36,541 bases of DNA, taken from positions 1-36,541 of IMG/VR virus record IMGVR_UViG_3300042197_003724. One strand, 5' to 3'. The position numbers were made by a program, and so were the translations under genes. Source of the DNA: a virus. This document shows, piece by piece, positions 13,659 through 31,165 of this stretch (the stretch's first letter is position 1; every line of letters starts with the position of its first letter). The notes beneath the pieces are model-generated. The model worked only from the letters and a program-made list of their open reading frames with translations, was not told the DNA's origin and made no database searches.

Positions 13659-13660
13659 TC

Positions 13661-15625: not shown

Positions 15626-15631
15626 TAAATA
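15624..15631 (+). promoter_or_regulatory. Late promoter-like element GATAAATA
   Basis: GATAAATA overlaps the stop of the Ig-like gene and lies 34 bases before the ATG at 15665; it differs from T4 TATAAATA by one base. Confidence 0.5.
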
Positions 15632-15664
15632 ATATTAACAATTAACCGGGGAGAGTGAACCGGA

Positions 15665-17614: not shown

Positions 17615-17617
17615 ATA
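17610..17617 (+). promoter_or_regulatory. Late promoter-like element GATAAATA
   Basis: GATAAATA overlaps the stop of the S74 fibre gene, 29 bases before the ATG at 17646. Confidence 0.5.
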
Positions 17618-17645
17618 AAAGAGAAAGCCGAGTACTTCAACGACG

Positions 17646-18449
17646 ATGGCAATTAAAATTAATAATACTACTGTTATTGATGATAGTAGAAATATTCAAA
17701 ATATAGGAATTATAACTGCAACAACCATTAATGCAACATCTTTTGTTGGTAATGGTTCAGGATTGACTGGAGCAGGTTCAACAGTTGCTGATGATACAAG
17801 TACCAATAGTACTTTTTATCCAGTATTAACTCAAACAACTACTGGGACAATTACAAGTTCCAATGTTTCTACTACTAAGTTATCCTTCAATCCTTCAACA
17901 GGAACTTTAAGTGCCACTGGAGTATCGGCAACAGCAGAAAGAACAACCTGGTCTCAAGTAGGTTCTGGTTTAACCTTTACTACTGGTATTGCTACCAACT
18001 TTACGGTATCTGGTGTAGGTACTATAACTCAATTAGTATCAACGAATGTAAATGTATCTGGTGTATCTTCAGTTGGTTCTGGAATTACACTGACCTCTAC
18101 GGGAGATATACGATTTGCTGGTATTATAACTGGTCGTGGTAGTGGATTATCTGGAGTAACTACAACACTTGTGGCTTCTGTAGGTGTTCAATCTGCAGGA
18201 GCTATAATTGGTGCTGGTATTACTCAACTGAACTTTATCGGTGCTGGTAATACTTTTGCTGTTAGAGGTACAACCGTTGATATTAGTATTGCTGGTGGTG
18301 GAGGATCTCTGGAAGTTAGACAAGCAGGAAGTAACGTTGGTTACTCAGTTACTGTGCTTAATTTCCAGACTGGATCTGGAATATCTGCTGCTGCAGGAAT
18401 TGCTACAGTAAACTCTCGATTTAATCGAGTAAACTATATTTTTAACTAA
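17646..18449 (+). CDS. Short tail-fibre paralogue without S74 domain
   Basis: 267 aa. It begins MAIKINNTTVIDDSRNIQNI, a common fibre N-terminus, then SFVGNGSGLTGAGS, the TWSQVGSGLTFTTGIATN module shared with the upstream fibre, and VSSVGSGITLTSTGD. It ends in a beta-rich segment (LEVRQAGSNVGYSVTVLNFQ) with no chaperone domain. It may be a separate fibre segment. The shared DNA module implies recombination between the two genes. Confidence 0.8.
   Translation: MAIKINNTTVIDDSRNIQNIGIITATTINATSFVGNGSGLTGAGSTVADDTSTNSTFYPVLTQTTTGTITSSNVSTTKLSFNPSTGTLSATGVSATAERTTWSQVGSGLTFTTGIATNFTVSGVGTITQLVSTNVNVSGVSSVGSGITLTSTGDIRFAGIITGRGSGLSGVTTTLVASVGVQSAGAIIGAGITQLNFIGAGNTFAVRGTTVDISIAGGGGSLEVRQAGSNVGYSVTVLNFQTGSGISAAAGIATVNSRFNRVNYIFN
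17912..18014 (+). repeat. Shared fibre module, copy in short fibre gene
   Basis: Partner of 15901-16003, about 90 percent identical overall by eye, with 50 identical bases at 17955-18004. It encodes the TWSQVGSGLTFTTGIATN unit. Confidence 0.85.
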
Positions 18450-18451
18450 CT

Positions 18452-18458
18452 CTAAATA
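18452..18458 (+). promoter_or_regulatory. Late promoter-like element CTAAATA
   Basis: CTAAATA, 25 bases before the ATG at 18477. Confidence 0.5.
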
Positions 18459-18476
18459 CTATTAAAAGGAAAAACT

Positions 18477-18851
18477 ATGGCTGCCCCAAACATTGCAAAC
18501 TTAACTACTATTACTGGTGTAACAACCTCACTGACTTTAACAACTACTTCACAAACAGTTTTAAGTAATGCTGCATCAAGTAATAAAGTTTCTAAAATTA
18601 ATACCATTGCAGCATCAAATATTGGTGGTGCAACTGCAAAAGTAACTGTTCGTTATGTTCAAGGTGCTGCAGGAGCAGGAACAACTGTTTCACTTGCAAC
18701 TGGAATTGATATTACTGCAGGTTCAACCCTAATTATCACTGATAAAAATTCGCCTTTTTATCTTGAAGAAGCACGTTCTCTCACTGCCCTCGCAAGCGCA
18801 AACTCAGCAATAGATTTAGTTGTGTCTTACGAAGATATTACCAATCTTTGA
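18477..18851 (+). CDS. Small virion structural protein, 124 aa
   Basis: 124 aa, Ala/Thr/Ser-rich and beta-rich (MAAPNIANLTTITGVTTSLT, SKINTIAASNIGGATAKVTV, SPFYLEEARSLTALASAN). AAAAGGA precedes the ATG. Proteins of this type occur in cyanophage tail-fibre clusters and are usually recorded as structural; the pattern suggests a compact beta-sandwich. Exact role unknown. Confidence 0.65.
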   Translation: MAAPNIANLTTITGVTTSLTLTTTSQTVLSNAASSNKVSKINTIAASNIGGATAKVTVRYVQGAAGAGTTVSLATGIDITAGSTLIITDKNSPFYLEEARSLTALASANSAIDLVVSYEDITNL

Positions 18852-18853
18852 TA

Positions 18854-18860
18854 TTAAATA
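18854..18860 (+). promoter_or_regulatory. Late promoter-like element TTAAATA
   Basis: TTAAATA, 14 bases before the ATG at 18874 and followed by AAGGAG, the ribosome site. The short distance makes it less convincing than the other copies. Confidence 0.3.
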
Positions 18861-18873
18861 AAGGAGAAATAAA

Positions 18874-19461
18874 ATGGCAGATCCAACAGCACTTTATTCT
18901 TATAAAGGTAATGAACCATCTATACTTCCCAATGAAATATCATGGGTAGAAGAATGGGGACAAATTACATATAGAACCGATGTTAATTCTTTTACTGATG
19001 AAGAATTAAAAAAAGCTGGATATGTAGGACCTTATACAGTTCCAAGTATAAATATTGAATATCAGACAAGGAGATGGGACGGAGAAAGTCTTACATACGT
19101 TGTTGAAGATATTTCCGATGAAGAACTGTGGTTTAATATAAGAAAAAAAAGAAATCAACTTTTAAAAGATAGTGATTGGACAGCTCTTGTAGATTCTCCA
19201 GATATTTTAAACTATAATGAGTGGTTTATGTATAGGCAAAGATTAAGAGACCTTACCGCGATGTTCGAGAATCCAAAAGAAGTAATTTGGCCAGAAAGTC
19301 CTGAAGGTAAATCAGACTCTGATTTTGATCAAGAGAGAATATATGATGAAAAATGGTCTGTAAGAATGAGAGATTTAGAAAGTCATTTTAATACATTAAA
19401 TAGTAAAATTGTTGAATTAAGAGCATCTATTATTGATTTACAATCAAATATTGAGGTTTAA
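18874..19461 (+). CDS. Tail fibre assembly chaperone (Phage_tail_APC-like)
   Basis: 195 aa. Residues about 90-145 match the tail assembly chaperone pattern: RNQLLKDSDWTALVDSPDI, then NEWFMYRQRLRDLTAMFENP and VIWPESPEG. These proteins help fold and assemble fibres and are usually encoded beside the fibre gene they serve. The N-terminal part (ISWVEEWGQITYRTDVNSF) and the C-terminal helix (MRDLESHFNTLNSKIVELRA) are specific to this protein. GGAG lies 7-8 bases before the ATG. It sits between fibre genes and the cysteine-rich adhesin, so either could be the client. Confidence 0.8.
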   Translation: MADPTALYSYKGNEPSILPNEISWVEEWGQITYRTDVNSFTDEELKKAGYVGPYTVPSINIEYQTRRWDGESLTYVVEDISDEELWFNIRKKRNQLLKDSDWTALVDSPDILNYNEWFMYRQRLRDLTAMFENPKEVIWPESPEGKSDSDFDQERIYDEKWSVRMRDLESHFNTLNSKIVELRASIIDLQSNIEV

Positions 19462-19463
19462 CT

Positions 19464-20213
19464 ATGGCACCATTTCGTCCTACAAATCTTAATAAAAGAT
19501 ATTATCCAGGTAATGCAAGTGTTATTGGACCAACTTGCACCCCAACTTTAGGAATCACTACAACTCAATGTTGTACTTGTGTTTCTACGTTATGTGGAAC
19601 TGCGACAATAACTAGTTTCACTCTAGGATGTAGATGCCATTCTGCTACTTGTCCTTGTTGTCAATGTTGTAATTGTTGTTCTTGTACGGTTTGTGCAAGA
19701 ACAACACCATCTGGAATGTGGAAATCTTTTGAGCAATATACAGCATGTTCTCAACAAACTTGGGGTTGTTTTTCAACTTGTAGTACAGGACCTCAGATAG
19801 GTTTTTGTGCGAATAATGGAATTATTTCTGGTGGCACTGTTGACTGCCAAGGATTTTTAATTTGCGATCAGGGTTCAGGAAATACAAAGTGGTGGGTTCC
19901 TCAACAAACCGCAGAATGTAGTATGTCTTGGTATAGTAGAGGAGATGCTAATAGTTGCGCTTCAAACGTTATGGGAATTGGTGGATGGTTTGTTCCATCA
20001 ACTGGAAATATTGATAATCCCGGTAGAGCATGTAGAACTTATTGGAACAATGGTGGTAATATTTATTGGACAAACCAAGAATGGTCCAACCCACAATATG
20101 GAAGTGTTACAGCACCATATTTTAGAATGGCTAATGGCCAATTTTTTACCGATGGTGCAGGTAGAAAAGGTGCTGGATATTCAGTAAGATCATTTAGAAC
20201 TACAACTGAATAA
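19464..20213 (+). CDS. Cysteine-rich tail adhesin candidate with DUF1566/Lcl-like C-terminus
   Basis: 249 aa with 25 cysteines, 16 of them between residues 25 and 77 (for example CCTC, CRC, CPCCQCCNCCSCTVC). The N-terminus (MAPFRPTNLNKRYYPGN) looks like a virion attachment segment. Residues about 155-249 resemble the DUF1566/Lcl C-terminal fold: GIGGWFVPST, RTYWNNGGNIYWTNQEW, YFRMANGQFF, SVRSFR. Such domains are found in adhesins and phage tips. The gene follows the assembly chaperone by 2 bases and ends the fibre operon, so I read it as a fibre tip or receptor-binding protein. The cysteines could form a disulfide ladder or bind metal; the sequence does not decide. Confidence 0.7.
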   Translation: MAPFRPTNLNKRYYPGNASVIGPTCTPTLGITTTQCCTCVSTLCGTATITSFTLGCRCHSATCPCCQCCNCCSCTVCARTTPSGMWKSFEQYTACSQQTWGCFSTCSTGPQIGFCANNGIISGGTVDCQGFLICDQGSGNTKWWVPQQTAECSMSWYSRGDANSCASNVMGIGGWFVPSTGNIDNPGRACRTYWNNGGNIYWTNQEWSNPQYGSVTAPYFRMANGQFFTDGAGRKGAGYSVRSFRTTTE

Positions 20214-20252: not shown

Positions 20253-21059
20253 ATGAAAAAATATTATTTTATCTCTGGATTGCCAAGAAGTGGAAGTACC
20301 TTGTTAAGTGCCATTTTGAGGCAAAATAAAAATTTTTATGCCGATATTTCTTCACCACTGTCTGAAATTACTAGATCTTCAATTATACATTTATCAAATA
20401 CAATAAGTAGATTAAATATTGATGAAAGTAAAAGGAAAAATGCAATTATTGGATTATTTGAAGGGTATTATTCGGATGTTTCTGCAAAAATAATTTTTGA
20501 TACATCAAGAACTTGGACTTACCATACTGATATTTTATTATCTTTATTTCCGTATACAAAAATATTTTGTTGTGTTAGAAATATATCTTCAATATTAAAT
20601 TCCTTTGAAAAAATTATCAAAAAAAATCCTTTATATATTTCCAGTGTTTTTAATGGAAAAGATTATCCAACTTGTTTTTCCAGATGTGAACATTTGATGA
20701 ATGAAAATGATGGAATAGTTTCGTTCGCATATTGTGGTTTATTGGAGGCTTATTCTAGCAATTCACAAATTATTAATTTTATTGAATATGAAGATTTATG
20801 CAAATATCCAGAAAAAATAATTGAAAAAATTTATAATTTAATAAATGAACCTTATCAACAACATGACTTCAATTCTTTAAATTATTCTAATGAATTATTT
20901 GATTTAAATTGCAACACAAAAGGATTGCATACGGTAGGAAGAAAAGTTACTTATAAAAAAGAATCTATTATAATACCTCAAAAAATTTATGATTACTATA
21001 ATAATATGAAACTAGAATTTTGGAAAGATAAAAAAGATTTTATTGGATCGTATAAATAA
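20253..21059 (+). CDS. Sulfotransferase (PAPS-dependent)
   Basis: 268 aa. The N-terminal GLPRSGSTLL (9-18) is the PAPS 5'-phosphosulfate loop of the sulfotransferase family, and VRNISSILNSF (108-118, with Arg109 and Ser113) fits the 3'-phosphate-binding motif. It transfers sulfate from PAPS to a hydroxyl or amine, usually on a glycan, protein or small molecule; no signal peptide or membrane segment is seen, so it should act in the cytoplasm. It opens the AT-rich modification island right after the adhesin gene and has no Shine-Dalgarno sequence. Substrate unknown. Confidence 0.85.
   Translation: MKKYYFISGLPRSGSTLLSAILRQNKNFYADISSPLSEITRSSIIHLSNTISRLNIDESKRKNAIIGLFEGYYSDVSAKIIFDTSRTWTYHTDILLSLFPYTKIFCCVRNISSILNSFEKIIKKNPLYISSVFNGKDYPTCFSRCEHLMNENDGIVSFAYCGLLEAYSSNSQIINFIEYEDLCKYPEKIIEKIYNLINEPYQQHDFNSLNYSNELFDLNCNTKGLHTVGRKVTYKKESIIIPQKIYDYYNNMKLEFWKDKKDFIGSYK
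21051..21058 (+). promoter_or_regulatory. Exact T4 late promoter motif TATAAATA
   Basis: TATAAATA overlaps the stop of the sulfotransferase gene, 18 bases before the ATG at 21077. It equals the T4 late consensus, but chance is possible in AT-rich DNA. Confidence 0.45.
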
Positions 21060-21076
21060 TTTTTTAATTTTCAACT

Positions 21077-21700
21077 ATGACTACATTATCTCTTTATTCA
21101 GTTCCGTTTTGGCAAACAACCTATCCCGACTTTGAAGAAGAAAAAGAAAAATTTTTAAAAGTAGTACAAGAATATAAACAAGAACATCCAGAAGCACAAA
21201 ATATATCGAATGTGGGTGGTTATCAAACCGAAAAATTTATACATTCAAAAGAGGAATTAAATTCACTTTTTAGTTATATTCATTCTTTTGCAAATTACGC
21301 TGCCGATGAATTAAATTTTGTTGCCAGAGATACTTATATAACATCTTCATGGGCAAATATTGGAGATTCTCGTCAATCAATGCACACAGAGCACACTCAT
21401 GGGGATGTTTTTTCTGGAGTATTTTTTTTAAATACTCCAGAAAAGAGTGGAAATCTTTGTATTAGAAATATAGCCACAAATTCAATGTGGATGGGATCAA
21501 AACTTTGTCAAGAAAAAAATCAATTTACTTCAACTTTAGTAAAAATTAGTCCGGTTGAAGGTGAAATTTTACTTTGGCCTTCATATTTACCACATGCAGT
21601 TGAAACGAATGACCATGATGACGTTAGAATTTCCATATCTTTTGATATAATTATGATACCAAAACCAAAATCAAATCAAGATAGTATTCCAGAAAGTTAA
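21077..21700 (+). CDS. 2OG-Fe(II) oxygenase, CHP02466/2OG-FeII_Oxy_5-like
   Basis: 207 aa. The core is SSWANIGDSRQSMHTEHTHG then DVFSGVFFLNTP (about 90-121), with likely ligands His108 and Asp110 (H-G-D), the distal His173 in LLWPSYLPHAV, and Arg184 (VRISISFDI) to bind 2-oxoglutarate. The family uses Fe(II), O2 and 2-oxoglutarate to hydroxylate a substrate that is rarely known in phages. No ribosome site is visible. It begins a run of four oxygenase genes (21077-23301). Confidence 0.85.
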   Translation: MTTLSLYSVPFWQTTYPDFEEEKEKFLKVVQEYKQEHPEAQNISNVGGYQTEKFIHSKEELNSLFSYIHSFANYAADELNFVARDTYITSSWANIGDSRQSMHTEHTHGDVFSGVFFLNTPEKSGNLCIRNIATNSMWMGSKLCQEKNQFTSTLVKISPVEGEILLWPSYLPHAVETNDHDDVRISISFDIIMIPKPKSNQDSIPES

Positions 21701-21718
21701 AAACTTATTTTTATATTA

Positions 21719-22285
21719 ATGATTAAAAAATATTCAAATGTTTTAAGTGAAGATACTTTAGAAGTAATAGAGTTGTACATTCAACATGCTTTAAAAAATG
21801 ATGTTTGGGCATCAAATCTAGAGTGGGATAAACGTCTAGTAAATTCTTCTTCAATAGTTATAACTCATCCAGTTTCAAAAAAAGAAATATTTTTTGAAGA
21901 AGTAAAAAATCAAATTCAAAAAATATTGAATGTTAATTTTGATAGTCTAAATTTGGAGTTTAGGTTAGCAATTTATATTTGGGGAAAAATGTCTTATATA
22001 ACTTGGCATGATGATTATGGTTGGGATTACAGTGGAACAATTTACTTGAATAAAGAATGGAATTTAAATTATGGAGGAATTTTTTTATGGAAAGATAATA
22101 AAAATTCGGAAATAAGAGGAGTAGAACCAATTTTTAACTCCATGGTTGTTAATAGCAAACATCAAATGGATGGTAATAATTTACATGCAGTAACAATGCT
22201 ATCATCAGAATCTCCAGAAAATCGATTTACTTTGCAGTGGAGATGTGTAGAAAAGAAAAAAATTAAAAAAATTGAATACCTTTAA
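21719..22285 (+). CDS. 2OG-Fe(II) oxygenase, prolyl-4-hydroxylase-like
   Basis: 188 aa. WHDDYGWDYSGTIYLNKEW contains the HxD pair (His97, Asp99); NYGGIFLW follows; His156 (LHAVTML) and Arg169 (NRFTLQW) complete the expected triad and 2-oxoglutarate-binding arginine. This order is typical of P4H-type double-stranded beta-helix oxygenases. All catalytic residues are present, so it should be active. No Shine-Dalgarno sequence. Substrate unknown. Confidence 0.85.
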   Translation: MIKKYSNVLSEDTLEVIELYIQHALKNDVWASNLEWDKRLVNSSSIVITHPVSKKEIFFEEVKNQIQKILNVNFDSLNLEFRLAIYIWGKMSYITWHDDYGWDYSGTIYLNKEWNLNYGGIFLWKDNKNSEIRGVEPIFNSMVVNSKHQMDGNNLHAVTMLSSESPENRFTLQWRCVEKKKIKKIEYL

Positions 22286-22288
22286 TTT

Positions 22289-22777
22289 ATGGAAAATATT
22301 TTTAAATCTCAAAAAAAACATTTTTATAAAAAAAATTTTTTGATTGACACGCCAAATTGGCAGTACTTTATAGACAATCTTGACTTTTCTATAAAAAATA
22401 ATTTGTCTTTACAATTTTTTGATAACTGTGGGATTGTTTTACATGATCTCAAAAATGTGAAAAATGTGAAAGATATAAAAAAAAATATTATAAAATCTAA
22501 TGATACAAAATACAATTGCTCGTCACACGCTTATATAAGTTTTTCATCCAAAAGTAAAACTTTTGGAAAACACAAGGATACTTCCGATGTTTGGTTTTGG
22601 CAATGTATTGGAGAAACTATGTGGAAAATTTATGATGACTCAACACATGAATACATTCTCAAATCAGGAGATTTGATTTACATACCACATGGAATGTATC
22701 ACCACACAACACCGATCTCACCTAGAGTTGGAATATCATTTGGTTTAGATTATCCACCACCAATTGAATATTCATGA
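22289..22777 (+). CDS. Cupin/JmjC-type oxygenase
   Basis: 162 aa. FGKHKDTSDVWFWQCIGE holds His95 and Asp97; GDLIYIPHGMYHHTTPISPR places His138/139 and Arg146 as in cupin_4/JmjC (ROXA-like) hydroxylases. The ILKSGDLIYIP strand is diagnostic of the cupin fold. Members hydroxylate residues in proteins or RNA-associated proteins; the phage substrate is unknown. The protein is short, so it may be a minimal form. Its end overlaps the start of the next gene (ATGA). Confidence 0.75.
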   Translation: MENIFKSQKKHFYKKNFLIDTPNWQYFIDNLDFSIKNNLSLQFFDNCGIVLHDLKNVKNVKDIKKNIIKSNDTKYNCSSHAYISFSSKSKTFGKHKDTSDVWFWQCIGETMWKIYDDSTHEYILKSGDLIYIPHGMYHHTTPISPRVGISFGLDYPPPIEYS

Positions 22778-23301
22778 AAGAATTAATGTTTTCGGTTCCA
22801 ATTTATAAGTATAAAGTTAATAATTGGAAATACAAAAAAAAAGAATTATTAATTTTGTTTAATTCTTTTGATACAAAGTTGGTTGAAAATGTGATGACTT
22901 CACCAATCAATATAAAAACAAATATATTTGAGGAAGAGATAAAAGCATTTGAAATTGATTGTGGATTATCTTCTCGATTACACGAATTTTGGTTTCAAAA
23001 TTACGAAAAAAATATGCATCACAATGTCCACAACCATGGTGCTCTTGGATTTTCTGGAATTTGTTTCATAGAATATGATAAAAATCATCATGCACCAACA
23101 ACTTTTATATCACCATTTATAAATAGTATTAGTGGAGAATATGCAAAATACATCATAAATGTAGAAGAAGGTGATATAGTATTTTTTCCGTCAAATATTT
23201 TACATTATGTTTTACCAAATTTATCAACAGTTCCAAGATTAATATCTTCATTCAATTTAGAAATAATTGAAAATAAAAAAAAATTTTGCGATTATTTCTA
23301 A
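22774..23301 (+). CDS. 2OG-Fe(II) oxygenase, CHP02466-like, divergent metal site
   Basis: 175 aa. MHHNVHNHGALGFSGICFIE (81-100) matches the W/N...HxHxxxxSG pattern of the CHP02466 group, and GDIVFFPSNILHYVLPNL with His144 and PRLISSFNLEI with Arg155 match its C-terminal half. Where the gene at 21077 has H-G-D, here the site is HNHG without Asp, so the third ligand is not obvious. It overlaps the upstream stop by 4 bases and is probably co-translated. Confidence 0.75.
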   Translation: MKELMFSVPIYKYKVNNWKYKKKELLILFNSFDTKLVENVMTSPINIKTNIFEEEIKAFEIDCGLSSRLHEFWFQNYEKNMHHNVHNHGALGFSGICFIEYDKNHHAPTTFISPFINSISGEYAKYIINVEEGDIVFFPSNILHYVLPNLSTVPRLISSFNLEIIENKKKFCDYF

Positions 23302-23342
23302 AAAAATATATAATAATATAAACTCAATTACATTAATTAATT

Positions 23343-24275
23343 ATGAAAATTATCAATATTGATGGTGGTATTGGAAGAGTTATCACCGCTTTACCTGCAC
23401 TTCTCAAATATCACAAAAACCATCCAGATGAGGAATGGCATGTGTCTATTATGGGATGGGATTACGTTCCTCTTGGCATTCCAGAACTTCAAGAAAGAAC
23501 TTTTAATCCAGACACAAAAGGAACCTGGGAAAATATTTTTATGAAAGCGGATGAAGTTATCTCCCCAGAACCTTATCGTCTTCCAAATTTTTATAAAGGT
23601 AGAATATCTCTTGCAGAGGCATTTGACGAAATTATCAATGACACGAATGACCACTCAGATTTGAATTATGAGACTTTAAATCTTTCTCATGCAGAAATTC
23701 GTAAAGGACAAGAAATAATTTGCAGAGCATACGAAACACAGAAAAAAGAACAAACCATCGTTATTAATCCGTATGGATCTACTGCACAAGTGTGTCCTTT
23801 GGGGGTCTATGATGACAGTTTGAGGTCATTGCCAGAGAATATGTTTGTAAAGCTTTGCGAACTCTTTGCAGAGGATTATAACGTCATCTATATGGGATAT
23901 TCTCATCTTCTCTCAGAGGAGAATAAGTTTATTTTTGTCCCCCAACCAGATCTTCATATTCGTGAGTGGATGGGTGTAATTAGTCAAGTAGACTATTTGA
24001 TTGGTTGTGATAGTGTAGGGCAACATATTGCAAGAGCAACGGGAACTAAAGGTTGTGTAATTATGGGTGGAACTGACGCAGTAAATATGTCTTATCCAGA
24101 CTACTTTAGAATTGTTCAAAGAAAAAAACCGGAATATTCTCCAATGAGAGTTTCGGGATTTCAATCTAATCTTGCGGAAAGATTGAATAAAGAATGTATT
24201 GAATACACTGATGATGAAATTTTGGATATCTACGAGCAAGTTAAATGTGATTTGAAAAATATTTTAAACACATGA
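23343..24275 (+). CDS. Glycosyltransferase family 9-like (heptosyltransferase-type)
   Basis: 310 aa. The N-terminal MKIINIDGGIGRVITALPAL is the GT-B/GT9 start (G-x-G-D-x-hhhxPhL pattern), and the C-terminal half has VINPYGST, YNVIYMGYSH and DYLIGCDSVGQHIARATGTK, as in heptosyltransferase-like enzymes. These transfer a sugar from a nucleotide donor to a lipopolysaccharide or other glycan. No membrane segment. Its base use is less AT-rich than the oxygenases around it, so it may have a different history. The stop overlaps the next gene's ATG (24272). Confidence 0.8.
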   Translation: MKIINIDGGIGRVITALPALLKYHKNHPDEEWHVSIMGWDYVPLGIPELQERTFNPDTKGTWENIFMKADEVISPEPYRLPNFYKGRISLAEAFDEIINDTNDHSDLNYETLNLSHAEIRKGQEIICRAYETQKKEQTIVINPYGSTAQVCPLGVYDDSLRSLPENMFVKLCELFAEDYNVIYMGYSHLLSEENKFIFVPQPDLHIREWMGVISQVDYLIGCDSVGQHIARATGTKGCVIMGGTDAVNMSYPDYFRIVQRKKPEYSPMRVSGFQSNLAERLNKECIEYTDDEILDIYEQVKCDLKNILNT

Positions 24276-24919
24276 ATGTCTTAACAAAAGATGAAAATAA
24301 TAAAGATATTTTGTTAGATCCCACTCAAAAACATCAAATTATGATGGAGTGGGAAAAACCTTATATGGAAGCATGTATTCAAAAACTTCAACCATTTGGT
24401 GATGTTCTTGAAATTGGTTTTGGTCTTGGATATTCTGCAACAGAAATACAGAAGTTTCCGATTAATTCATATACAGTCATAGAATGTGATGAAGAAACTT
24501 ACAAAAGAGCATTAAAATGGAAAAAAAATTACAATCATTCAATTAATATTATTTTTGGTAGATGGGAAGAAGTTTATGAAACTCTACCAAAATTTGATTG
24601 TATGTTTTTTGATGATTTTGATATAAAAACTTTAGAACTTTGCAAACTTGATCCGACTATTCCTTGCAGAAATATTGATTTTATTTTAAAATTAAAAAAT
24701 AATTTAAAAAATTATACAAAATTTTCTTTTTATTGTGCTACTAATAAAGAACAAATGCAAAAATATAAAAATCAATGGAAAAAATTATTAAAAGAATATC
24801 AAAAAAACATTAATTTTGAAGAATACCTCATAGATGTTCCAGAAAATTGTAGATATATAGTTGATCAGACTTTATACTGCCCTCTACTTCAGTTTAAAAA
24901 AATATTTGATTATCAATAG
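24272..24919 (+). CDS. Class I SAM methyltransferase, GAMT/RMT2-like
   Basis: 215 aa. HQIMMEWEKPYMEACIQKL then VLEIGFGLGYSA (45-56) match guanidinoacetate/arginine-type methyltransferases, whose hallmarks are W-E-x-P-Y-M and LE(I/V)GFG. VIECDEETYKRALKW is the ribose-binding acidic loop, and FDCMFFDDF follows. The class methylates a guanidino nitrogen, but the phage substrate is not shown. It overlaps the GT9 gene by 4 bases. Confidence 0.75.
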   Translation: MNVLTKDENNKDILLDPTQKHQIMMEWEKPYMEACIQKLQPFGDVLEIGFGLGYSATEIQKFPINSYTVIECDEETYKRALKWKKNYNHSINIIFGRWEEVYETLPKFDCMFFDDFDIKTLELCKLDPTIPCRNIDFILKLKNNLKNYTKFSFYCATNKEQMQKYKNQWKKLLKEYQKNINFEEYLIDVPENCRYIVDQTLYCPLLQFKKIFDYQ

Positions 24920-24920
24920 A

Positions 24921-25649
24921 ATGCCAAAACCAATTCAAGTTTTTTTAAGGCATTGTTATTATTCAAAATTGCAAGAACTTCCTGATCGTATGAGACCTGG
25001 TTGGTTTCGTAAAGATAGAGCTTTTCAAAATTTTAAAACAACTTTAGATCCAAAACTTGTTGACTATCATATTGTTTATGATGAATTTTATGGAGATATT
25101 AAAAGCACTTTTCTTAAAGAAGAAACTAATGTGAAAATTATAAATTGCGGATCGGAATGTGATAGTTTTATTGAAACTATGGATTATGCAATTTCTTTAA
25201 ATTACCCCGAAGATACAATTATTTACTTTTTAGAAGATGATTATCTACATAAATCAAATTGGGGAAAAATATTGCTAGAAGGATTTACATTAAATCCTGC
25301 TTATGTAACTTTGTATGATTTTGATTTCTTTTTAAATAAAAACATTTTTACAAAACTTTTTACAACTTCAAGTACTCATTGGAGAGCAGTTCCTGCAACT
25401 ACAAATACATTTTCATGTAAATTATCGACTCTATTAGATGATTATGAAATTCACAAAGAATTTTCTATAAATGGTGTGAAGGAAAAAGAGAATGGGCTTA
25501 ATTTTTCAAAGGATTATCATAAATTTTGGGAATTAAGTCAAAATTATAATAAACATTTGATATCACCAATTCCTGGATATTCAACTCATTGTGATGCAAA
25601 TCATCTCTCACCATTTATAAATTGGAAAAAAATTATTGATGCTGACTAA
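24921..25649 (+). CDS. GT-A-like glycosyltransferase candidate
   Basis: 242 aa from ATG 24921, the first base after the upstream stop plus one; the frame is open further upstream but those starts lie inside the methyltransferase gene. IYFLEDDYLHKSNWG (101-115) resembles the DxD metal-nucleotide site of GT-A enzymes (EDDY), followed by AYVTLYDFDFFLN. Residues RMRPGWFRKDRAFQNF near the start are typical of a family of phage and bacterial transferases I cannot name precisely. Expected activity: transfer of a sugar from an NDP donor. Confidence 0.6.
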   Translation: MPKPIQVFLRHCYYSKLQELPDRMRPGWFRKDRAFQNFKTTLDPKLVDYHIVYDEFYGDIKSTFLKEETNVKIINCGSECDSFIETMDYAISLNYPEDTIIYFLEDDYLHKSNWGKILLEGFTLNPAYVTLYDFDFFLNKNIFTKLFTTSSTHWRAVPATTNTFSCKLSTLLDDYEIHKEFSINGVKEKENGLNFSKDYHKFWELSQNYNKHLISPIPGYSTHCDANHLSPFINWKKIIDAD

Positions 25650-25669
25650 GATAAAAATATATTAATTTT

Positions 25670-26230
25670 ATGGAAAAATACATTATTATAGATAATTTTC
25701 TTGAGAAAAATTTATTTTTAAAACTTAAAAATATTTTTTTTCCAAAATCCATAAATCAAGAAAAACTTCCTTGGAGTTATCAAAATGGTATTGTAAGAAA
25801 TCCAGAACTTGGTGCTACCAATTATAAAGAATATGATTGGATGTATGTACATTCTTTTATGAATTCACAAATAAAAGAAGAAAGTGATTTTATTTATTTA
25901 ATAAAACCAATATTTGAAAAATTAAATAGTGCTAAAATTATAGATGCTAGAGCAAATTTATTAATACCCACAAAAAAACAAATTTATCATGAAAATCATG
26001 TAGATAGAAAAATACCTCATAATGTTGCACTTTTTTATGTAACTACGAACAACGGATTTACTCTTTTAAACGATAATAAAAAAATTGAATGTTTGGAAAA
26101 TAGAATTTTAATATTTGATGGGTCAATTTATCATCGATCAGTAAGTTCCACTGACAGAGTTAGATGCGTTATTAATATTAATTATTTTCCTATTAATAAG
26201 AAAAACAATCTTTTATTTGATTACAAATAA
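25670..26230 (+). CDS. 2OG-Fe(II) oxygenase
   Basis: 186 aa. YHENHVDRKIPHNVALFYV carries His110-Val-Asp112; NRILIFDGSIYHRSVSS carries His155; DRVRCVININYF carries the 2-oxoglutarate arginine (Arg163 or Arg165). All expected residues are present. The block IPHNVALFYVTTNNGFTLL is shared in pattern with the genes at 26421 and 29010, so these three are paralogues. The start context TTAATTTTATGGA recurs before other genes of the island; there is no Shine-Dalgarno sequence. Confidence 0.85.
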   Translation: MEKYIIIDNFLEKNLFLKLKNIFFPKSINQEKLPWSYQNGIVRNPELGATNYKEYDWMYVHSFMNSQIKEESDFIYLIKPIFEKLNSAKIIDARANLLIPTKKQIYHENHVDRKIPHNVALFYVTTNNGFTLLNDNKKIECLENRILIFDGSIYHRSVSSTDRVRCVININYFPINKKNNLLFDYK

Positions 26231-26286
26231 TGAATGCGGATTTGTATAACGAGTATTATTATAATAGTCCAAATTTAATTGAAATA

Positions 26287-26312
26287 AATCCAAAAGTTGC
26301 AACTTTTGGATT
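26287..26312. repeat. Perfect 26-bp palindrome
   Basis: AATCCAAAAGTTG followed by its exact reverse complement CAACTTTTGGATT. It has no loop and no T run, so it is not an ordinary terminator. It lies inside the broken oxygenase, just before the frame change. Confidence 0.95.
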
Positions 26313-26383
26313 GTTCATGGATTCTTCACGGAACATATTCTCAAAATGATGGAATACGTCAAACATTTAATTTGGGTTTTGAG

Positions 26384-26390
26384 CTAAATA
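26384..26390 (+). promoter_or_regulatory. Late promoter-like element CTAAATA
   Basis: CTAAATA, 31 bases before the ATG at 26421, within the tail of the pseudogene. Confidence 0.5.
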
Positions 26391-26420
26391 AAAATGTTAT
26401 TTAAAATATGATTAATTTTT

Positions 26421-27065
26421 ATGGATTTTTTGCCAATAATAATTGATGACATCATTGATTATGAACATCAAAATAAAATAGAAGATGCAATTTTTGATTG
26501 TTCTTGGGAATTTATGTTAGATAATGTATGTGGATCAAAATTTACAAATCTTGATCGTAGAAAATTTATTTCACCGAGAGATTATAAAATAACACCAACA
26601 ATAACTTCAGATGTAGTTAAAAATCAACATCTTTTAGAATTGATAATGCCATTAGCCGAAAAATCTTGCAAAAAAATAAATTTTAAAATAGATGCAGTTG
26701 CTAGATGTTTATCTGCTATTCATTTTTTAAATAGTGAATCTAATCAAATTGATAAAATTCATGTGAATAGAAAAGATCCTCATTTAGTTATGATATATTA
26801 TGTTATAGATTCTGATGGAGAAACAATTTTGTTCGACAAAACTTCCAAAGATATTCCAGTTGAAACCGAATATCCAGAAGATCATTATGAGATGAATATA
26901 TTTCAAAAAATAGAAGCAAAAAAAGGTAGAGTATTATTTTTTGATGGTAAAGTTTATCATGCATCTTCAACATCGAGTAAAAATTATAGATGTATAATAA
27001 CTTGGGATATATTTGGAAAATTTTTAGATAAAGATATTTCTTATTCCGAATTAAGACCAAATTGA
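26421..27065 (+). CDS. 2OG-Fe(II) oxygenase-like, Asp ligand replaced by Asn
   Basis: 214 aa. KIHVNRKDPHLVMIYYV aligns with HVDRKIPHNVALFYV at 25670 and IHLDMNKSHYVIIFYP at 29010, but the Asp of HxD is Asn116 here (codon AAT). His180 (VYHASSTSS) and Arg190 (YRCIITWDI) are kept. With Asn as ligand the iron site would be altered; some members of the superfamily work with changed ligands (for example halogenases), others lose activity. The N-terminus (DFLPIIIDDIIDYEHQNKIE) is typical of the group. A late-type motif lies 31 bases upstream; no Shine-Dalgarno sequence. Confidence 0.75.
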   Translation: MDFLPIIIDDIIDYEHQNKIEDAIFDCSWEFMLDNVCGSKFTNLDRRKFISPRDYKITPTITSDVVKNQHLLELIMPLAEKSCKKINFKIDAVARCLSAIHFLNSESNQIDKIHVNRKDPHLVMIYYVIDSDGETILFDKTSKDIPVETEYPEDHYEMNIFQKIEAKKGRVLFFDGKVYHASSTSSKNYRCIITWDIFGKFLDKDISYSELRPN

Positions 27066-27145
27066 AAATATTAAATGTTTAATTTCACAAAATATAGATA
27101 GTTTTTTGTAAAGAACAATTTTTTAATTTATATTTTAATCCAAAC

Positions 27146-27152
27146 CTAAATA
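27146..27152 (+). promoter_or_regulatory. Late promoter-like element CTAAATA
   Basis: CTAAATA, 29 bases before the ATG at 27175, after the end of the AT-rich island. Nothing else is seen in the gap 27066-27174. Confidence 0.5.
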
Positions 27153-27174
27153 AAGCATTAAATGATGCAGACAA

Positions 27175-27342
27175 ATGGTTGATATCAACTATGATGAGAT
27201 TTCCAAAGAGTTTTATCTCTATTTCGAAGGTAAACGATACAATTTAACATCAAAAGAGATTTCAAATCTTAAAGAGAAACTAAACTCAGTGGAAAAAAGT
27301 TCTTTATCTTTTAAATCAAATGGAAATCAAAACCTGCTCTAA
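27175..27342 (+). CDS. Small protein, 55 aa
   Basis: Starts at ATG 27175 (MVDINYDEISKEFYLYFEGK) and ends at TAA 27340-27342, overlapping the next gene by 23 bases. It has a beta-hairpin-like start and a helix (TSKEISNLKEKLNSVEK). The late-type motif upstream supports expression. Function unknown. Confidence 0.5.
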   Translation: MVDINYDEISKEFYLYFEGKRYNLTSKEISNLKEKLNSVEKSSLSFKSNGNQNLL

Positions 27343-27559
27343 ATGTGGAGCACGATGGATAGCAGGGCAACTTTATTGGTCTAATGGAAAACCAGGTAAA
27401 GAAGAAGATTTAGCAGGGCTTGTGTGTAATAAAATAAACGATGAAAATTGTCTTAATCCCAAGTTAGGAGACACTACAGGACAGACTTGGGAGAAAAGAC
27501 TTCAAAGAATGAATGAGTTTGAAGAGAAAATGCTCAGTCATCCGGACTTTGAGATATAA
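27320..27559 (+). CDS. Small zinc-ribbon-like protein, 79 aa
   Basis: CSKCG (Cys6, Cys9) and a second pair Cys36 (LVCNK) and Cys44 (ENCLN) give the four ligands of a possible zinc ribbon. The charged C-terminal helix (WEKRLQRMNEFEEKMLSHP) may bind a partner. It starts inside the previous gene. The role could be nucleic-acid or protein binding; not proven. Confidence 0.65.
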   Translation: MEIKTCSKCGARWIAGQLYWSNGKPGKEEDLAGLVCNKINDENCLNPKLGDTTGQTWEKRLQRMNEFEEKMLSHPDFEI

Positions 27560-27603
27560 TTTCTATTGAAACTTCACAAAGCAATTCTAAAGATATTTTA
27601 GGC

Positions 27604-27647
27604 ATTTGTCAAGTACATTTGACAAATCAGGCATTTTAAAGTAAACT
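27604..27647 (+). promoter_or_regulatory. Sigma70-type promoter overlapping an inverted repeat
   Basis: TTGACA (27619-27624), a 17-base spacer and TAAACT (27642-27647). A 9-bp inverted repeat ATTTGTCAA (27604-27612) / TTGACAAAT (27619-27627) covers the -35, so it may be an operator. It lies before the gene at 27669. Confidence 0.6.
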
Positions 27648-27668
27648 GTCTGTAATTAAATCATCTTT

Positions 27669-27902
27669 ATGTCTTTCACAAACAGTTCACTACTGAGCCC
27701 ACAATCTCAAGACTTTTACATTACTCATGACGAGATGTGGGCAGCAATTCCATATGGCAATAACTTTATGGTCATTAATAATGGACAGCAGATTAAGCAG
27801 TTTGTAACTCTTGAGGAGTGTGTTGATTTTATCACTATCAAGCATCAAAAAAAGAAAATAAGTAAGAGAAAAAGTGAAGTGACAATTGATCAGTTTTGTT
27901 GA
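27669..27902 (+). CDS. Hypothetical protein, 77 aa
   Basis: An N-terminal Ser/Thr-rich part, a hydrophobic middle (MWAAIPYGNNFMVINNGQQI, then KQFVTLEECVDFI) and a basic C-terminus (HQKKKISKRKSEV). No family recognised. First gene after the promoter at 27619-27647; the ATG follows a short leader of about 15-20 bases. Confidence 0.6.
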   Translation: MSFTNSSLLSPQSQDFYITHDEMWAAIPYGNNFMVINNGQQIKQFVTLEECVDFITIKHQKKKISKRKSEVTIDQFC

Positions 27903-27905
27903 AAA

Positions 27906-28148
27906 ATGAACCCCTATACAATTTGGTTCGTTCTCTTTGCATTTTTAGGATATTATATCGTCACTGATGCTTCAGTCGCACGATTTTTTGTATTAGTCAC
28001 ACAATTTGTTCAGGTTCATTATCAAAAGTATAAATGGATTATAATACATCATCCCAAAACACCCTGGGCACGGTATAGTATGCATCGTCGTTCTATGAAA
28101 CTTGCAGAGGAACTAATGAAAGAATTGGAGAAGAAGAATGATCTTTGA
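27906..28148 (+). CDS. Small membrane protein, 80 aa
   Basis: Residues 5-35 (TIWFVLFAFLGYYIVTDASV, then ARFFVLVTQFV) form one long or two short membrane segments, followed by a basic region (HHPKTPWARYSMHRRSMK) and a helix (LAEELMKELEKK). It overlaps the phosphoesterase start by 11 bases, so the two are probably co-expressed. Function unknown. Confidence 0.65.
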   Translation: MNPYTIWFVLFAFLGYYIVTDASVARFFVLVTQFVQVHYQKYKWIIIHHPKTPWARYSMHRRSMKLAEELMKELEKKNDL

Positions 28149-28839
28149 TGCAGTATTTGTGAGTGATTTGCATTTAGGAACTCCCAGATGCAATACCAAA
28201 AAACTTAATAAGTTTCTCAAAGAAATCAAAACCAAGAAACTGGTGTTGGTTGGAGATATTATTGATGTGTATTGTATGGAGAAATATAATACTCACTGGA
28301 AAAAAGAACATACTGAATGCGTTCATCAAATTCTAAATCTTGCAAAGAAAGGTGTAGAAATCGTTTATATTCCTGGAAATCACGAAGGAATGTTAAGGAG
28401 ATACTGTCCTTTTGAACACAAGAACTTTAAGATGGTTGAAGAGTATGTGTATAAAACAAAGAACGGTGATAAGTATCTTTGCACACACGGAGATCAACAC
28501 TCTGAGTTCTCTTCTGGTTCTTGGAAACAACTGGTGTTTAACAAAGGATATGAACTGATTACTCCAATGAGTTTGTGGATGGAAAAGATTTTTCGTTTTT
28601 CATTGGTTTATGCACTCAAGAATACAATTCGTGGAAAAAAATATATCAATCAATATGAAACTGACTTAGCAAACTATTGTAGACAGAAAGGGGATTACCG
28701 GGGAATTATCTGCGGTCACATTCATCATAACAATATGAGAAAGTTTGATAAGATTGAGTATATGTGCTGCGGTGATTTCGTGGATACCTGTTCAGCAATC
28801 GTGGAAAAGAATGGTTTCTTTCAAACAATTAAGTATTAA
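28138..28839 (+). CDS. Calcineurin-like metallophosphoesterase (LpxH-like)
   Basis: 233 aa with the full motif set: DLHLG (Asp10, His12), GDIID (39-43), GNHEG (80-84), THGDQH (116-121) and GHIHH (about 193-197), the di-metal site of calcineurin-like enzymes. The overall pattern resembles UDP-2,3-diacylglucosamine hydrolase (LpxH), which cleaves a pyrophosphate in lipid A synthesis, but other small phosphoesters are possible. A diverged copy of its last 38 codons is found at 31052-31165. Confidence 0.85.
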   Translation: MIFDAVFVSDLHLGTPRCNTKKLNKFLKEIKTKKLVLVGDIIDVYCMEKYNTHWKKEHTECVHQILNLAKKGVEIVYIPGNHEGMLRRYCPFEHKNFKMVEEYVYKTKNGDKYLCTHGDQHSEFSSGSWKQLVFNKGYELITPMSLWMEKIFRFSLVYALKNTIRGKKYINQYETDLANYCRQKGDYRGIICGHIHHNNMRKFDKIEYMCCGDFVDTCSAIVEKNGFFQTIKY

Positions 28840-28878
28840 ATAAATATCTAAAAGTAAGAATATTCTTTCATATTGCTG

Positions 28879-28989
28879 ATGAATACCTATTCCAGAGCAC
28901 TGCGACATATTGATATAACAGATGTTAAAAAGAAACATCAGCAGAAGATTAGTGAGCAAAAAATGCAAAAAAAATTCAAAACGATTTAA
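28879..28989 (+). CDS. Short basic peptide, 36 aa, at the cassette edge
   Basis: ATG 28879 to TAA 28987-28989: MNTYSRALRHIDITDVKKKH then QQKISEQKMQKKFKTI. Highly basic and helical. It looks like the beginning of a longer protein cut short at the edge of the AT-rich cassette; that is inference. It has no ribosome site that I can see. Confidence 0.35.
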   Translation: MNTYSRALRHIDITDVKKKHQQKISEQKMQKKFKTI

Positions 28990-29009
28990 TAAAAAAATAA
29001 TTTACTACA

Positions 29010-29633
29010 ATGAAAAAATTTTTAATATTTGATAATGTCATATCAGAAAATTATTTAAGGGGATTGGTTGATAATATTTTTAACTATAATTGGAAATTTT
29101 CATCTAATATAACTTTTGGTGATGAAGAATCTGTTGTAAACTTAGTTGATTTTGAGTATGGATTTTACTCTGAATTGACAATAGATCAAAAATACTTTAT
29201 ACTACCTTTAATTTATAAAATTTGTGACCTTAGTAATATAGAAGTAAAAAGTAAAGCTCAAATATTAAGAATGGTGCCAAGATTGCAGACAATGATGTCT
29301 CATAATAATGAAATAAATGATATTCATCTTGATATGAATAAAAGTCACTATGTAATTATTTTTTATCCTCATGATATTGATGGTGAAACAATACTATATG
29401 ATCAAACAACTTCCGATTGTAGTTTTTTAGATTTTTCAAAAATGAGTATTGATGAAAGAAAAAATATGAAAAATAATTTTACAATTTTAAAAAAAATTAA
29501 ACCAAAAAAGAATAGAGCTTTAGTTTTTAATGGAAATAGATATCATGCTTCATCTTCACCAAGTTTAGGACCTAGATGCATAATTAATTTTAATATTGAA
29601 TATGATGATTTGGAAAATCCAAAATTAATTTAA
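29010..29633 (+). CDS. 2OG-Fe(II) oxygenase
   Basis: 207 aa. IHLDMNKSHYVIIFYPHDIDG holds His106 and Asp108; NRYHASSSPS holds His179; PRCIINFNIEY holds Arg189. All active-site residues are present. Strongly similar in pattern to the gene at 26421 (DGETILYDQTTSD versus DGETILFDKTSKD), so the two cassettes share an oxygenase lineage. No Shine-Dalgarno sequence. Substrate unknown. Confidence 0.85.
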   Translation: MKKFLIFDNVISENYLRGLVDNIFNYNWKFSSNITFGDEESVVNLVDFEYGFYSELTIDQKYFILPLIYKICDLSNIEVKSKAQILRMVPRLQTMMSHNNEINDIHLDMNKSHYVIIFYPHDIDGETILYDQTTSDCSFLDFSKMSIDERKNMKNNFTILKKIKPKKNRALVFNGNRYHASSSPSLGPRCIINFNIEYDDLENPKLI

Positions 29634-29689
29634 AGTAATACTTGTATAAAATGCAAAAAATAAATTTTATTGAACATTAAAAAAACAAA

Positions 29690-30241
29690 ATGAAAAATCA
29701 AATGAAAAATTATATTTTTATTGGAAAATTAAATGTAAATGAAATAATTAATTTTGTTACAAATCTCGACCAAAGTGAATGGGAAGAAGAAACAATACGA
29801 CAAAAAGTTTTTTCGGTTCATATGCATACTAAAACCGTCCCAATTTTATGGGATTATGAGTCTCTTTCTTATTTAAAAGTTGGGCAAGAAAGAAAATATT
29901 TTTCTTGGTTTAAGGGTACTGATTTTTTTAAAAACTTAAATAAAAAATTATTTGAATTTTATGGAGATGGTACAATTTTGAGAATTCTTTTGACAAAATT
30001 AGAATCTAAAAAATCAATAATGCCCCACAAAGATGGGGGAGAATCTTTATTAGTTCCCAATAGAATTCATATACCAATTATTACAAATGATCAAGTATTT
30101 TTCTCTGTCGATGATGAAGTAAAAAATATGAAAATTGGTGAAATGTGGGAATTTAACAATAGTAAAATCCATTTTGTAAATAATTTTAGTAATGAAGACC
30201 GAGTTCACTTGATTGCAGATTATTATAAAAACACTAAATAA
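29690..30241 (+). CDS. Aspartyl/asparaginyl beta-hydroxylase-like oxygenase
   Basis: 183 aa. MPHKDGGESL (His113, Asp115), NRIHIPIITND (His127 for the 2-oxoglutarate side), KIHFVNNFS (His161) and DRVHLIADYY (Arg171) give the pattern of the Asp/Asn hydroxylase family (PF05118-type), distinct from the other oxygenases here. In animals this family hydroxylates EGF domains; bacterial relatives act on small molecules or proteins. A second methionine is at residue 5. No ribosome site. Confidence 0.8.
   Translation: MKNQMKNYIFIGKLNVNEIINFVTNLDQSEWEEETIRQKVFSVHMHTKTVPILWDYESLSYLKVGQERKYFSWFKGTDFFKNLNKKLFEFYGDGTILRILLTKLESKKSIMPHKDGGESLLVPNRIHIPIITNDQVFFSVDDEVKNMKIGEMWEFNNSKIHFVNNFSNEDRVHLIADYYKNTK
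30234..30240 (+). promoter_or_regulatory. Late promoter-like element CTAAATA
   Basis: CTAAATA overlapping the stop of the upstream gene and 35 bases before the ATG at 30275. Confidence 0.45.
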
Positions 30242-30274
30242 AACGCATTATAAAAAAATTTAGTTTTGATTTTA

Positions 30275-31012
30275 ATGTCTTTAAATTATCCCCAAACATT
30301 CAATTCTTTTGAGTATCCATATCTTCCTATGAACTCATATTACAGAGTTCCTCCAGAAAATATGGAAAAAGAAATTGATTACAAAAAATGGGTAGGGGGA
30401 AGATGGGATGAGCAAGGAAACCTGCAAAAAAATTTTTTAATTTCTCAGGGATTAAAACCAGAACATAAATTTTTAGATTTAGGATGTGGTTGTTTGAGAG
30501 CTGGGATAAAATTAATTGATTTTTTAGATAAGTATAATTATTATGGGCAAGATGTAAATCCATATTTAGTCAAAATGGGTTTAGAACAAGAAGTTCCTAA
30601 GTATAATTTGCAAGAAAAAATTAATAAAAAAAATTTTTCTATTAGTGCAGATTTTACATTATCCTTTGAGGAAGATGTAAAATTTGATATGGCAATATCC
30701 CAATCAGTCTTCACTCATCTTCCAATAAATCATTTATATTTTTGTTTGTTAAAATTAAAAAATTATTTCCTTAAAAATTCAAAATTTTTTGTGAGTTTTT
30801 GGTTGATACCAGAAGAAAGTAATTTGTGTGATAATTTTGTTTGGTCGGATGGACTGGTCACAAGTCATATATCTGATACTTATCATTATAAAAAATCTCA
30901 AATAGAATCGATAATTTTAAATTCTCCAATTAACCAATACTGGGACTGTAGTTATATTGGAAATTGGAATCACCCAGTAAATCAAAAAATGTTTTGTTTT
31001 ATTAGAAAATAG
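30275..31012 (+). CDS. Class I SAM-dependent methyltransferase
   Basis: 245 aa from ATG 30275; a TTG start at 30266 would add 3 residues but ATG is more likely. FLDLGCGCLRAGIKLIDFL (66-84) is motif I and YYGQDVNPYLVKMG motif II; FDMAISQSVFTHLP is motif post-II and LKNYFLKNSKFFVSFW fits motif III. Residues KKWVGGRWDEQG before motif I recall glycan/lipid methyltransferases near polysaccharide genes. Substrate unknown. Confidence 0.8.
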   Translation: MSLNYPQTFNSFEYPYLPMNSYYRVPPENMEKEIDYKKWVGGRWDEQGNLQKNFLISQGLKPEHKFLDLGCGCLRAGIKLIDFLDKYNYYGQDVNPYLVKMGLEQEVPKYNLQEKINKKNFSISADFTLSFEEDVKFDMAISQSVFTHLPINHLYFCLLKLKNYFLKNSKFFVSFWLIPEESNLCDNFVWSDGLVTSHISDTYHYKKSQIESIILNSPINQYWDCSYIGNWNHPVNQKMFCFIRK

Positions 31013-31051: not shown

Positions 31052-31165
31052 CACGCAAACATTCGTAAGTTTGATAAGATTGAATACATGTGTTGCGGAG
31101 ATTTTGTAGATACCTGTTCTGCAATTGTAGAGAAGAATGGTGCATTTCAACTGATGCGTTATTGA
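31052..31165 (+). pseudogene. Diverged 3' fragment of the phosphoesterase gene
   Basis: One frame reads HANIRKFDKIEYMCCGDF VDTCSAIVEKNGAFQLMRY and stops at TGA 31163-31165. It matches the last 38 codons of the gene at 28138 (HNNMRKFDKIEYMCCGDF...), with most differences in third codon positions. No upstream part of the gene is present. It marks the right edge of the AT-rich cassette, just before the HNH gene. Confidence 0.8.

Follow-up and report, generated by a model that had tools for sequence, protein, structure and literature searches.

Oxygenase and transferase genes behind the fibre-tip gene of a marine phage: a possible cassette for chemical modification of the tip

Composition of the locus

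A group of oxygenase and transferase genes is described here in a 36.5 kb phage record of IMG/VR (IMGVR_UViG_3300042197_003724; its whole stretch of 36,541 nucleotides is called the window below). The tail genes of this phage are T4-like, and the closest relatives of its baseplate-hub protein are found in cyanophages (~31% identity), so that a picocyanobacterium is the likely host. The fibre operon (7764-20213) is followed directly downstream by an enzyme island (Table 1). Gene order and content across related loci suggest that the island could serve as a cassette that modifies the adhesive fibre tip, located within a hypervariable host-recognition region; the probability of this reading is put at roughly 0.5.

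All open reading frames (ORFs) named in a first-pass annotation of this DNA are present where it placed them. The single island that it described holds the enzyme genes but is not contiguous, being formed by two blocks (20253-27065 and 29010-31012) with unrelated genes between them. The intervening segment 27320-28839 (three small genes, sm1-sm3, and a metallophosphoesterase gene) was considered as a part of the pathway and excluded: sm1-sm3 belong to the flanks in related loci, and the GC content at third codon positions differs. Two 84-bp copies of the 3' end of the metallophosphoesterase gene (28741-28824 and 31067-31150, 85%) stand as direct repeats on either side of the second block (OXF, the Asp/Asn-hydroxylase-type gene and MT2), which was therefore probably acquired as a separate insertion, the repeat being the footprint of a partial gene duplication.

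Table 1. Features of the fibre-tip block and the enzyme island (2OG, 2-oxoglutarate; GT, glycosyltransferase; AF2, AlphaFold2; pLDDT, predicted local distance difference test; values after profile names are E-values)
Feature	Coordinates	Strand	Support
Small fibre-tip/adaptor protein, first gene of the conserved tip block	18477..18851	+	Order d18477-tfa-Cys kept in relatives
Tail-fibre assembly chaperone-like protein (Phage_tail_APC)	18874..19461	+	PF16778 2.5e-14; phrog_4912
Fibre-tip protein, Cys-rich N-part and C-type-lectin/Lcl-like C-terminal domain; proposed substrate	19464..20213	+	
Sulfotransferase	20253..21059	+	PF13469 1.1e-11, 45.8 bits against a cut-off of 27; PDB relative CurM sulfotransferase domain, E 0.002
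OXA, near-constant 2OG-Fe(II) oxygenase-like protein, HxH...H...R	21077..21700	+	PF13759 4.5e-20; AF2 pLDDT 80
OXB, 2OG-Fe(II) oxygenase, HDD...H...R	21719..22285	+	PF13640 1.3e-6
JmjC/cupin-type oxygenase, HKD...H	22289..22777	+	JmjC_2 PF08007 5e-12; nearest PDB entry MINA53, E 0.004
OXC, second PF13759 oxygenase-like protein, HNH	22774..23301	+	PF13759 4.3e-10; phrog_81 3e-30
GT9-like (heptosyltransferase-like) GT, best conserved gene of the module	23343..24275	+	phrog_8954 1e-59
Class I methyltransferase-like protein	24272..24919	+	PF13649 0.0077, below cut-off; 71-76% identical copies next to GT9 in relatives
GT-A-like GT, EDD motif	24861..25649	+	Homologue matches PF00535 0.0099; eight orthologous loci at 67-75% identity
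OXD, phrog_274-type 2OG oxygenase, HVD...H...R	25670..26230	+	phrog_274 2e-39; motif
Ninth oxygenase remnant, PF13759-like, last ~25 residues	26231..26420	+	Up to 65% identity to intact copies of relatives
OXE, phrog_274 oxygenase, HVN for HVD	26421..27065	+	phrog_274 2e-24; 45/47 relatives HDHR
OXF, phrog_274 oxygenase, HLD...H...R, second block	29010..29633	+	phrog_274 5e-26
Asp/Asn-hydroxylase-family oxygenase (AAH)	29690..30241	+	Asp_Arg_Hydrox PF05118 2e-14; nearest PDB entry L-proline cis-4-hydroxylase, E 4e-4
MT2, second methyltransferase-like protein	30266..31012	+	PF08242 0.001, below cut-off
Copy of metallophosphoesterase gene 3' end, right edge of the inserted second block	31067..31150	+	84 bp, 85%

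The eight intact ORFs that had been read as double-stranded beta-helix (DSBH) proteins are borne out by Pfam or PHROG profile matches. They represent several subfamilies, as first supposed, though about five rather than eight: two members of PF13759, one of PF13640, three of phrog_274 (OXD, OXE and OXF, paralogues with a mutual identity of 23-31%), one of JmjC_2 and one of the Asp/Asn-hydroxylase type. The DSBH core was recognised through the predicted structure and Foldseek for OXA, and through profiles for the remaining oxygenases. The HxD...H motif is read in OXB, the JmjC type, OXD, OXF and the Asp/Asn-hydroxylase type, with HxN in OXE and HxH in OXA and OXC. In OXA the HxH variant is shared with 49 of 54 relatives, and the solved PF13759 structures (3bvc, 2rg4) likewise carry HxH. 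These two structures come first in the Foldseek search with the OXA model, followed by proline hydroxylases and related enzymes; PHD2-type protein hydroxylases are matched too. Scanning bacterial genomes with OXA returned remote homologues only, plus one short edge match at 64%.

The PHROG name of phrog_274, 'DNA endonuclease V', was rejected for these proteins, which show the HxD...H...R of 2OG oxygenases. The 'denV' or endonuclease V label carried by this family in PHROG and GenBank (P-SSM2 PSSM2_324) is likely a widespread misannotation. The broken ninth oxygenase is genuine, since an intact PF13759-like gene occupies the same place in relatives. A perfect 26-bp palindrome without a T-run lies at 26287-26312, within the remnant.

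The transferases are assigned with unequal confidence. The sulfotransferase assignment is sound, its Pfam match lying above the cut-off. The GT9 assignment is weak for the window copy (PF01075 E 0.095, 12.4 bits against 22 needed) and better in relatives, which match heptosyltransferase III at 3.5e-7; among eleven GT9-like members PF01075 is matched by six (best 1e-4) and TIGR02201 by seven (best 3.5e-7). Support for the GT-A assignment exists and consists of a weak GT2 match in one relative (0.0099); the TTG start of this gene at 24861 overlaps the preceding gene, and the true start is perhaps further in. Both ORFs named as methyltransferases are in place, with matches under the Pfam cut-offs. 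The oxygenase and transferase genes that have an orthologue in one relative compared show ratios of nonsynonymous to synonymous substitution (dN/dS) of ~0.15-0.35, with ~0.1 for the GT9-like gene, and the genes compared are thus under purifying selection.

A foreign origin of the island, suggested by a dip in GC content (25-30% against 36%), was dropped. The dip reflects amino-acid composition and is no sign of foreign DNA, because third-position GC is alike (0.11-0.27) across the fibre operon and the island. The search of the phage collection for near DNA matches to the window returned just one ~300-bp piece. Directly upstream of the large fibre gene, a Mom-like DNA-modification protein is encoded at 7058-7663 (phrog_1384, 4.5e-32).

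Linkage to the fibre tip in related loci

The product of the gene at 19464 is 249 residues long; of its 25 Cys, 21 fall in residues 1-128. In the AlphaFold2 model nearly all of residues 1-127 have a pLDDT below 50, and the remainder is confidently folded. For the C-terminus, Legionella Lcl (8q4e) is the top match by Foldseek (E 1e-4) and by sequence profile (6e-6), C-type lectins ranking after Lcl in Foldseek, and the predicted fold is that of a C-type lectin.

In five related contigs (L026, L033, L138, L154 and L047) an adenine-mutating retroelement, consisting of Avd and a reverse transcriptase (RT), lies between the tip gene and the oxygenase. Mismatches between template repeat and variable repeat fall almost exclusively on template adenines (26/26, 28/29, 22/24, 21/23 and 18/19), so in some phages a retroelement diversifies this family of tip proteins, in keeping with a role of the domain in receptor binding. 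The window carries no such element (RT, accessory protein, A-biased template and variable repeats). In two contigs (L026 939-1451, L038 4157-4645) the tip proteins bear N-terminal tandem repeats of ~14 residues (C-x-N-Q-S/A-G-T/S-W/Y-R), which are possible modification targets.

Loci related to the island were gathered by scans with GT9, GT-A and OXA, well over 100 in total. Dozens of uncultured phages share the arrangement. In the order that recurs, fibre genes are followed by the genes for a small adaptor, a chaperone and a lectin or Cys-rich tip; OXA, the sulfotransferase and GT9 come next, and then (a methyl- or carbamoyltransferase), GT-A and OXD. A lectin or Cys-rich tip gene occurs within five genes upstream of OXA in 32 of 38 loci (non-redundant clusters of the OXA subfamily having enough upstream sequence), where chance would give ~7.5% per locus; the tip gene is often immediately upstream of OXA or separated from it by Avd and RT only. 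Within 8 kb of OXA, all 32 tabulated loci have a glycosyltransferase, 24 a sulfotransferase and 12 a carbamoyltransferase. The adjacency of the enzymes to the fibre operon and the transferases, noticed in the window at first, therefore holds among relatives.

These 8-kb surroundings contain 292 ORFs, among them 73 oxygenases, 68 glycosyltransferases, 27 sulfotransferases and 16 carbamoyltransferases, the oxygenase and glycosyltransferase counts being limited to families with Pfam or PHROG matches (the GT9 and GT-A matches are weak). Three families named glycosyltransferase by eye (GTA2_271, GT_234 and GT_239) had no Pfam support and were left out of the final counts. The number of verified oxygenases per locus has a median of 2 and a range of 1-8, the window standing near the top; a close relative (L012) has a comparably rich enzyme set in another order. 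In these comparisons only OXA is near-constant, and the other oxygenases are exchangeable cargo swapped between relatives. The dedicated pathway of the first-pass annotation is accordingly reduced: a link of the enzymes with the fibre operon and with transferases is supported, but they do not constitute one fixed pathway.

The cargo of relatives includes tryptophan-halogenase-like and radical-SAM genes (L013 136-1383; L018 10929-11843). Together with oxygenases and methyl-, sulfo-, glycosyl- and carbamoyltransferases these are typical tailoring enzymes, and the folds of OXA and of the Asp/Asn-hydroxylase type also match hydroxylases of free amino acids. A pathway tailoring a small metabolite of the infected cell could be imagined on these grounds. 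No scaffold-building enzyme is recognised in the island, and such a pathway would leave the strict linkage to a structural gene and a retroelement unexplained; it is considered highly improbable.

In seven long related contigs, counted by Pfam hits, oxygenases are ~5 times denser within 10 kb of a GT9 gene than elsewhere (15 in 124 kb against 11 in 442 kb, p 8e-5). Hidden Markov models (HMMs) of oxygenases built in the analysis gave p 1e-11; they were seeded from the same loci, and the Pfam-based count is preferred. Clustering of this kind bears on a second possibility, namely that the region after the fibre genes is a tolerant hotspot that takes up independent cargo with unrelated roles in 2-oxoglutarate or nitrogen metabolism, on nucleic acids or on host proteins. 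Cargo order and content vary strongly, the second block looks like a separate insertion, and modulation of 2-oxoglutarate levels is a published idea for such oxygenases (PMC3037559). Single oxygenases occur across cyanophages, usually 1-5 per genome with 24 2OG-Fe(II) oxygenase genes in S-SCSM1 (PMC9602691), and seven are scattered in G011. The hotspot does not account for the recurrence of OXA, sulfotransferase, GT9 and GT-A genes together, in near-fixed order, beside the tip gene, nor for the higher density near GT9 or the purifying selection on the compared genes, and it seems quite improbable.

The GT9-like gene has a wider distribution. In P-SSM2, S-SSM7, S-CAM1 and AG-345-O18 it stands between genes for unrelated Cys-rich proteins (25-73 Cys) on its upstream side and a NodU-type carbamoyltransferase gene downstream. 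A Cys-rich ORF lies within 6 kb upstream in 43 of 65 GT9 loci (non-redundant, with at least 5 kb of upstream sequence), while in the seven long contigs Cys-rich ORFs number 8 of 554, seven of the eight being tip genes. The protein before GT9 in uncultured relatives can reach 1,300-1,450 residues with 130-148 Cys; no Pfam match was obtained for the two such giants tested. Nine loci (L073, L082, L085, L090-L095) have giant Cys-rich proteins of fibre type (up to ~1,460 aa, 148 Cys) directly before GT9 and the carbamoyltransferase.

A third possibility is that the enzymes change lipopolysaccharide (LPS) or some other glycan of the infected host, which might, for instance, prevent superinfection. 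In its favour, the GT9-like proteins are similar to heptosyltransferases of LPS synthesis, heptose-pathway genes adjoin GT9 in the three cultured phages P-SSM2, S-SSM7 and S-CAM1, and large LPS gene clusters have been described in P-SSM2 and S-SSM7 (PMC3037559). Alteration of the host surface is moreover the published reading for glycosyltransferases of the host recognition cluster in pelagi- and cyanomyophages (PMC7029224). Among the OXA loci, however, just 1 of 32 has a heptose or nucleotide-sugar gene, and not one of the 292 ORFs is predicted to cross the membrane twice or more; by this prediction neither a flippase, a polymerase nor a lipid-linked transferase is seen. The enzymes stand behind the lectin or Cys-rich tip gene and lack a late-promoter motif of their own. 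This motif, TATAAATA, occurs within 60 bp upstream of the adaptor gene in 11 of 18 homologues of 18477 and upstream of none of the sulfotransferase, GT-A, OXD and carbamoyltransferase homologues, from which co-transcription of the cassette enzymes with the tip may be inferred; within the window itself its frequency is no higher than chance. Host-surface alteration is regarded as unlikely, and on genetic grounds the fibre tip is preferred as the target to a host glycan or a small molecule.

Proposed modification of the tip

Tip modification could proceed as follows. Late in infection the operon would yield the fibre, the chaperone and the 19464 protein. OXA would hydroxylate residues of the tip, probably in the disordered segment rich in Cys, Thr, Ser and Asn. 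The sulfotransferase, the GT9-like and GT-A-like enzymes and the methyltransferases would next add sulfate, sugar or methyl groups to the hydroxyls so formed or to native Ser, Thr and Cys. OXB-OXF, the JmjC type and the Asp/Asn-hydroxylase type would be exchangeable extras broadening the possible surface chemistry. The modification would occur in the cytoplasm before assembly, which fits soluble enzymes encoded in a structural operon beside the tip without flippase, polymerase or lipid-linked transferase. Its benefit could be tip stability or altered receptor binding. All of this chemistry is inferred, from each catalytic step and its place in the order to the substrate, the residues changed and the benefit.

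Several observations weigh against tip modification. Linkage is no proof of substrate, since a hypervariable region could collect enzymes merely by tolerating insertions, and the family HMMs were seeded from the same loci in which the linkage is seen. Oxygenases standing without transferases do occur scattered in other cyanophage genomes, which speaks in part against the pathway first proposed: none of the G011 oxygenases is near the GT9 gene of that genome, and those of S-SCSM1 lie, in the region read, among replication genes. The distal His and Arg are missing from a few OXA homologues, including one that has lectin-type genes as neighbours (L038). OXE has no acidic metal ligand, HxD being present in 45 of 47 relatives, and may be dead or of altered chemistry. 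Some OXA-linked lectin proteins (L027, L029) are not Cys-rich, so the Cys-rich segment is no obligate substrate. The GT9 family is usually tied to LPS core synthesis, and no nucleotide-sugar genes are recognised in the window.

A broader proposal, which is tentative and falls somewhat short of an even chance, is a modular multi-enzyme system of post-translational modification for phage receptor-binding tips. A lectin tip with a Cys-rich segment, in some phages also diversified by a retroelement, would be hydroxylated, sulfated, glycosylated, carbamoylated or methylated by a cassette reshuffled between phages, and host recognition would evolve by tip chemistry as well as by sequence. In a wider form (Cys-rich tip, GT9, carbamoyltransferase and heptose genes) it would reach P-SSM2, S-SSM7 and many uncultured phages.

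Few unexplained genes are as common in marine phages as those of oxygenases, and the linkage of tip, oxygenase and transferases offers them a concrete and testable substrate, namely the product of the neighbouring tip gene. If tip modification is true, phages vary receptor binding by post-translational chemistry besides sequence, which would be a new way to vary host recognition. It would also bear on how host ranges are predicted and on how the 'LPS genes' and 'auxiliary metabolic genes' of viral metagenomes are interpreted.

Relation to known systems

The literature search found no description of a cassette in which oxygenase, sulfotransferase and glycosyltransferase genes are tied to a lectin or Cys-rich tip, nothing on Cys-rich cyanophage fibres beside glycosyltransferases or on hydroxylated phage tips, and no remark on Cys-rich fibre proteins in which the cysteines number as many as ~145. 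The enzyme families are all known already, and the region is an extreme form of the host recognition cluster that has been published for T4-like pelagi- and cyanomyophages. This cluster is a large hypervariable region among structural genes in which tail fibres occur together with glycosyltransferases and radical-SAM cassettes; domains of the carbohydrate-binding and major-tropism-determinant kinds are also reported (PMC7029224). The window shares with it the hypervariable setting of tail fibres and glycosyltransferases among structural genes, with content differing between relatives. The published account stresses glycosyltransferases and change of the host surface, whereas oxygenases and sulfotransferases are prominent here and track a specific lectin or Cys-rich tip gene. 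The host recognition cluster lies between VrlC and the neck gene gp14; gp13 and gp14 follow the module in S-CAM1 and S-SSM7, and no neck gene is recognised in the window. Demonstrated tip chemistry would lift the cassette beyond a variant of this cluster.

The oxygenase repertoires of cyanophages include the same Pfam families, PF13759 and PF13640, without known substrate (PMC9602691). In these repertoires many oxygenases are scattered, some among replication genes, whereas here they are clustered behind the tip with transferases.

TibC, a bacterial heptosyltransferase that modifies a surface adhesin, offers a precedent (PMC4358343). Membership of the window GT9 among the autotransporter heptosyltransferases (TibC/Aah) was considered and rejected: this family is absent from the NCBIfam matches, and no profile match to any GT9-type solved structure was obtained. 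The likeness is one of proposed function, adhesin modification, and not of sequence. Virion proteins of mycobacteriophages carry glycans at the C-termini of capsid and tail-tube proteins (Freeman et al. 2023, cited in PMC12619734). In that secondary account the targets are capsid and tail tube, whereas here the receptor-binding tip is the proposed target, and oxygenases and sulfation would come in addition.

Diversity-generating retroelements act on C-type-lectin tropism proteins of phages, of the Mtd type. The five relatives described above share with this system Avd, RT and an A-biased template beside a C-type-lectin tip gene. The window copy is without the retroelement, and the relatives add to the known arrangement a modification cassette placed right behind it.

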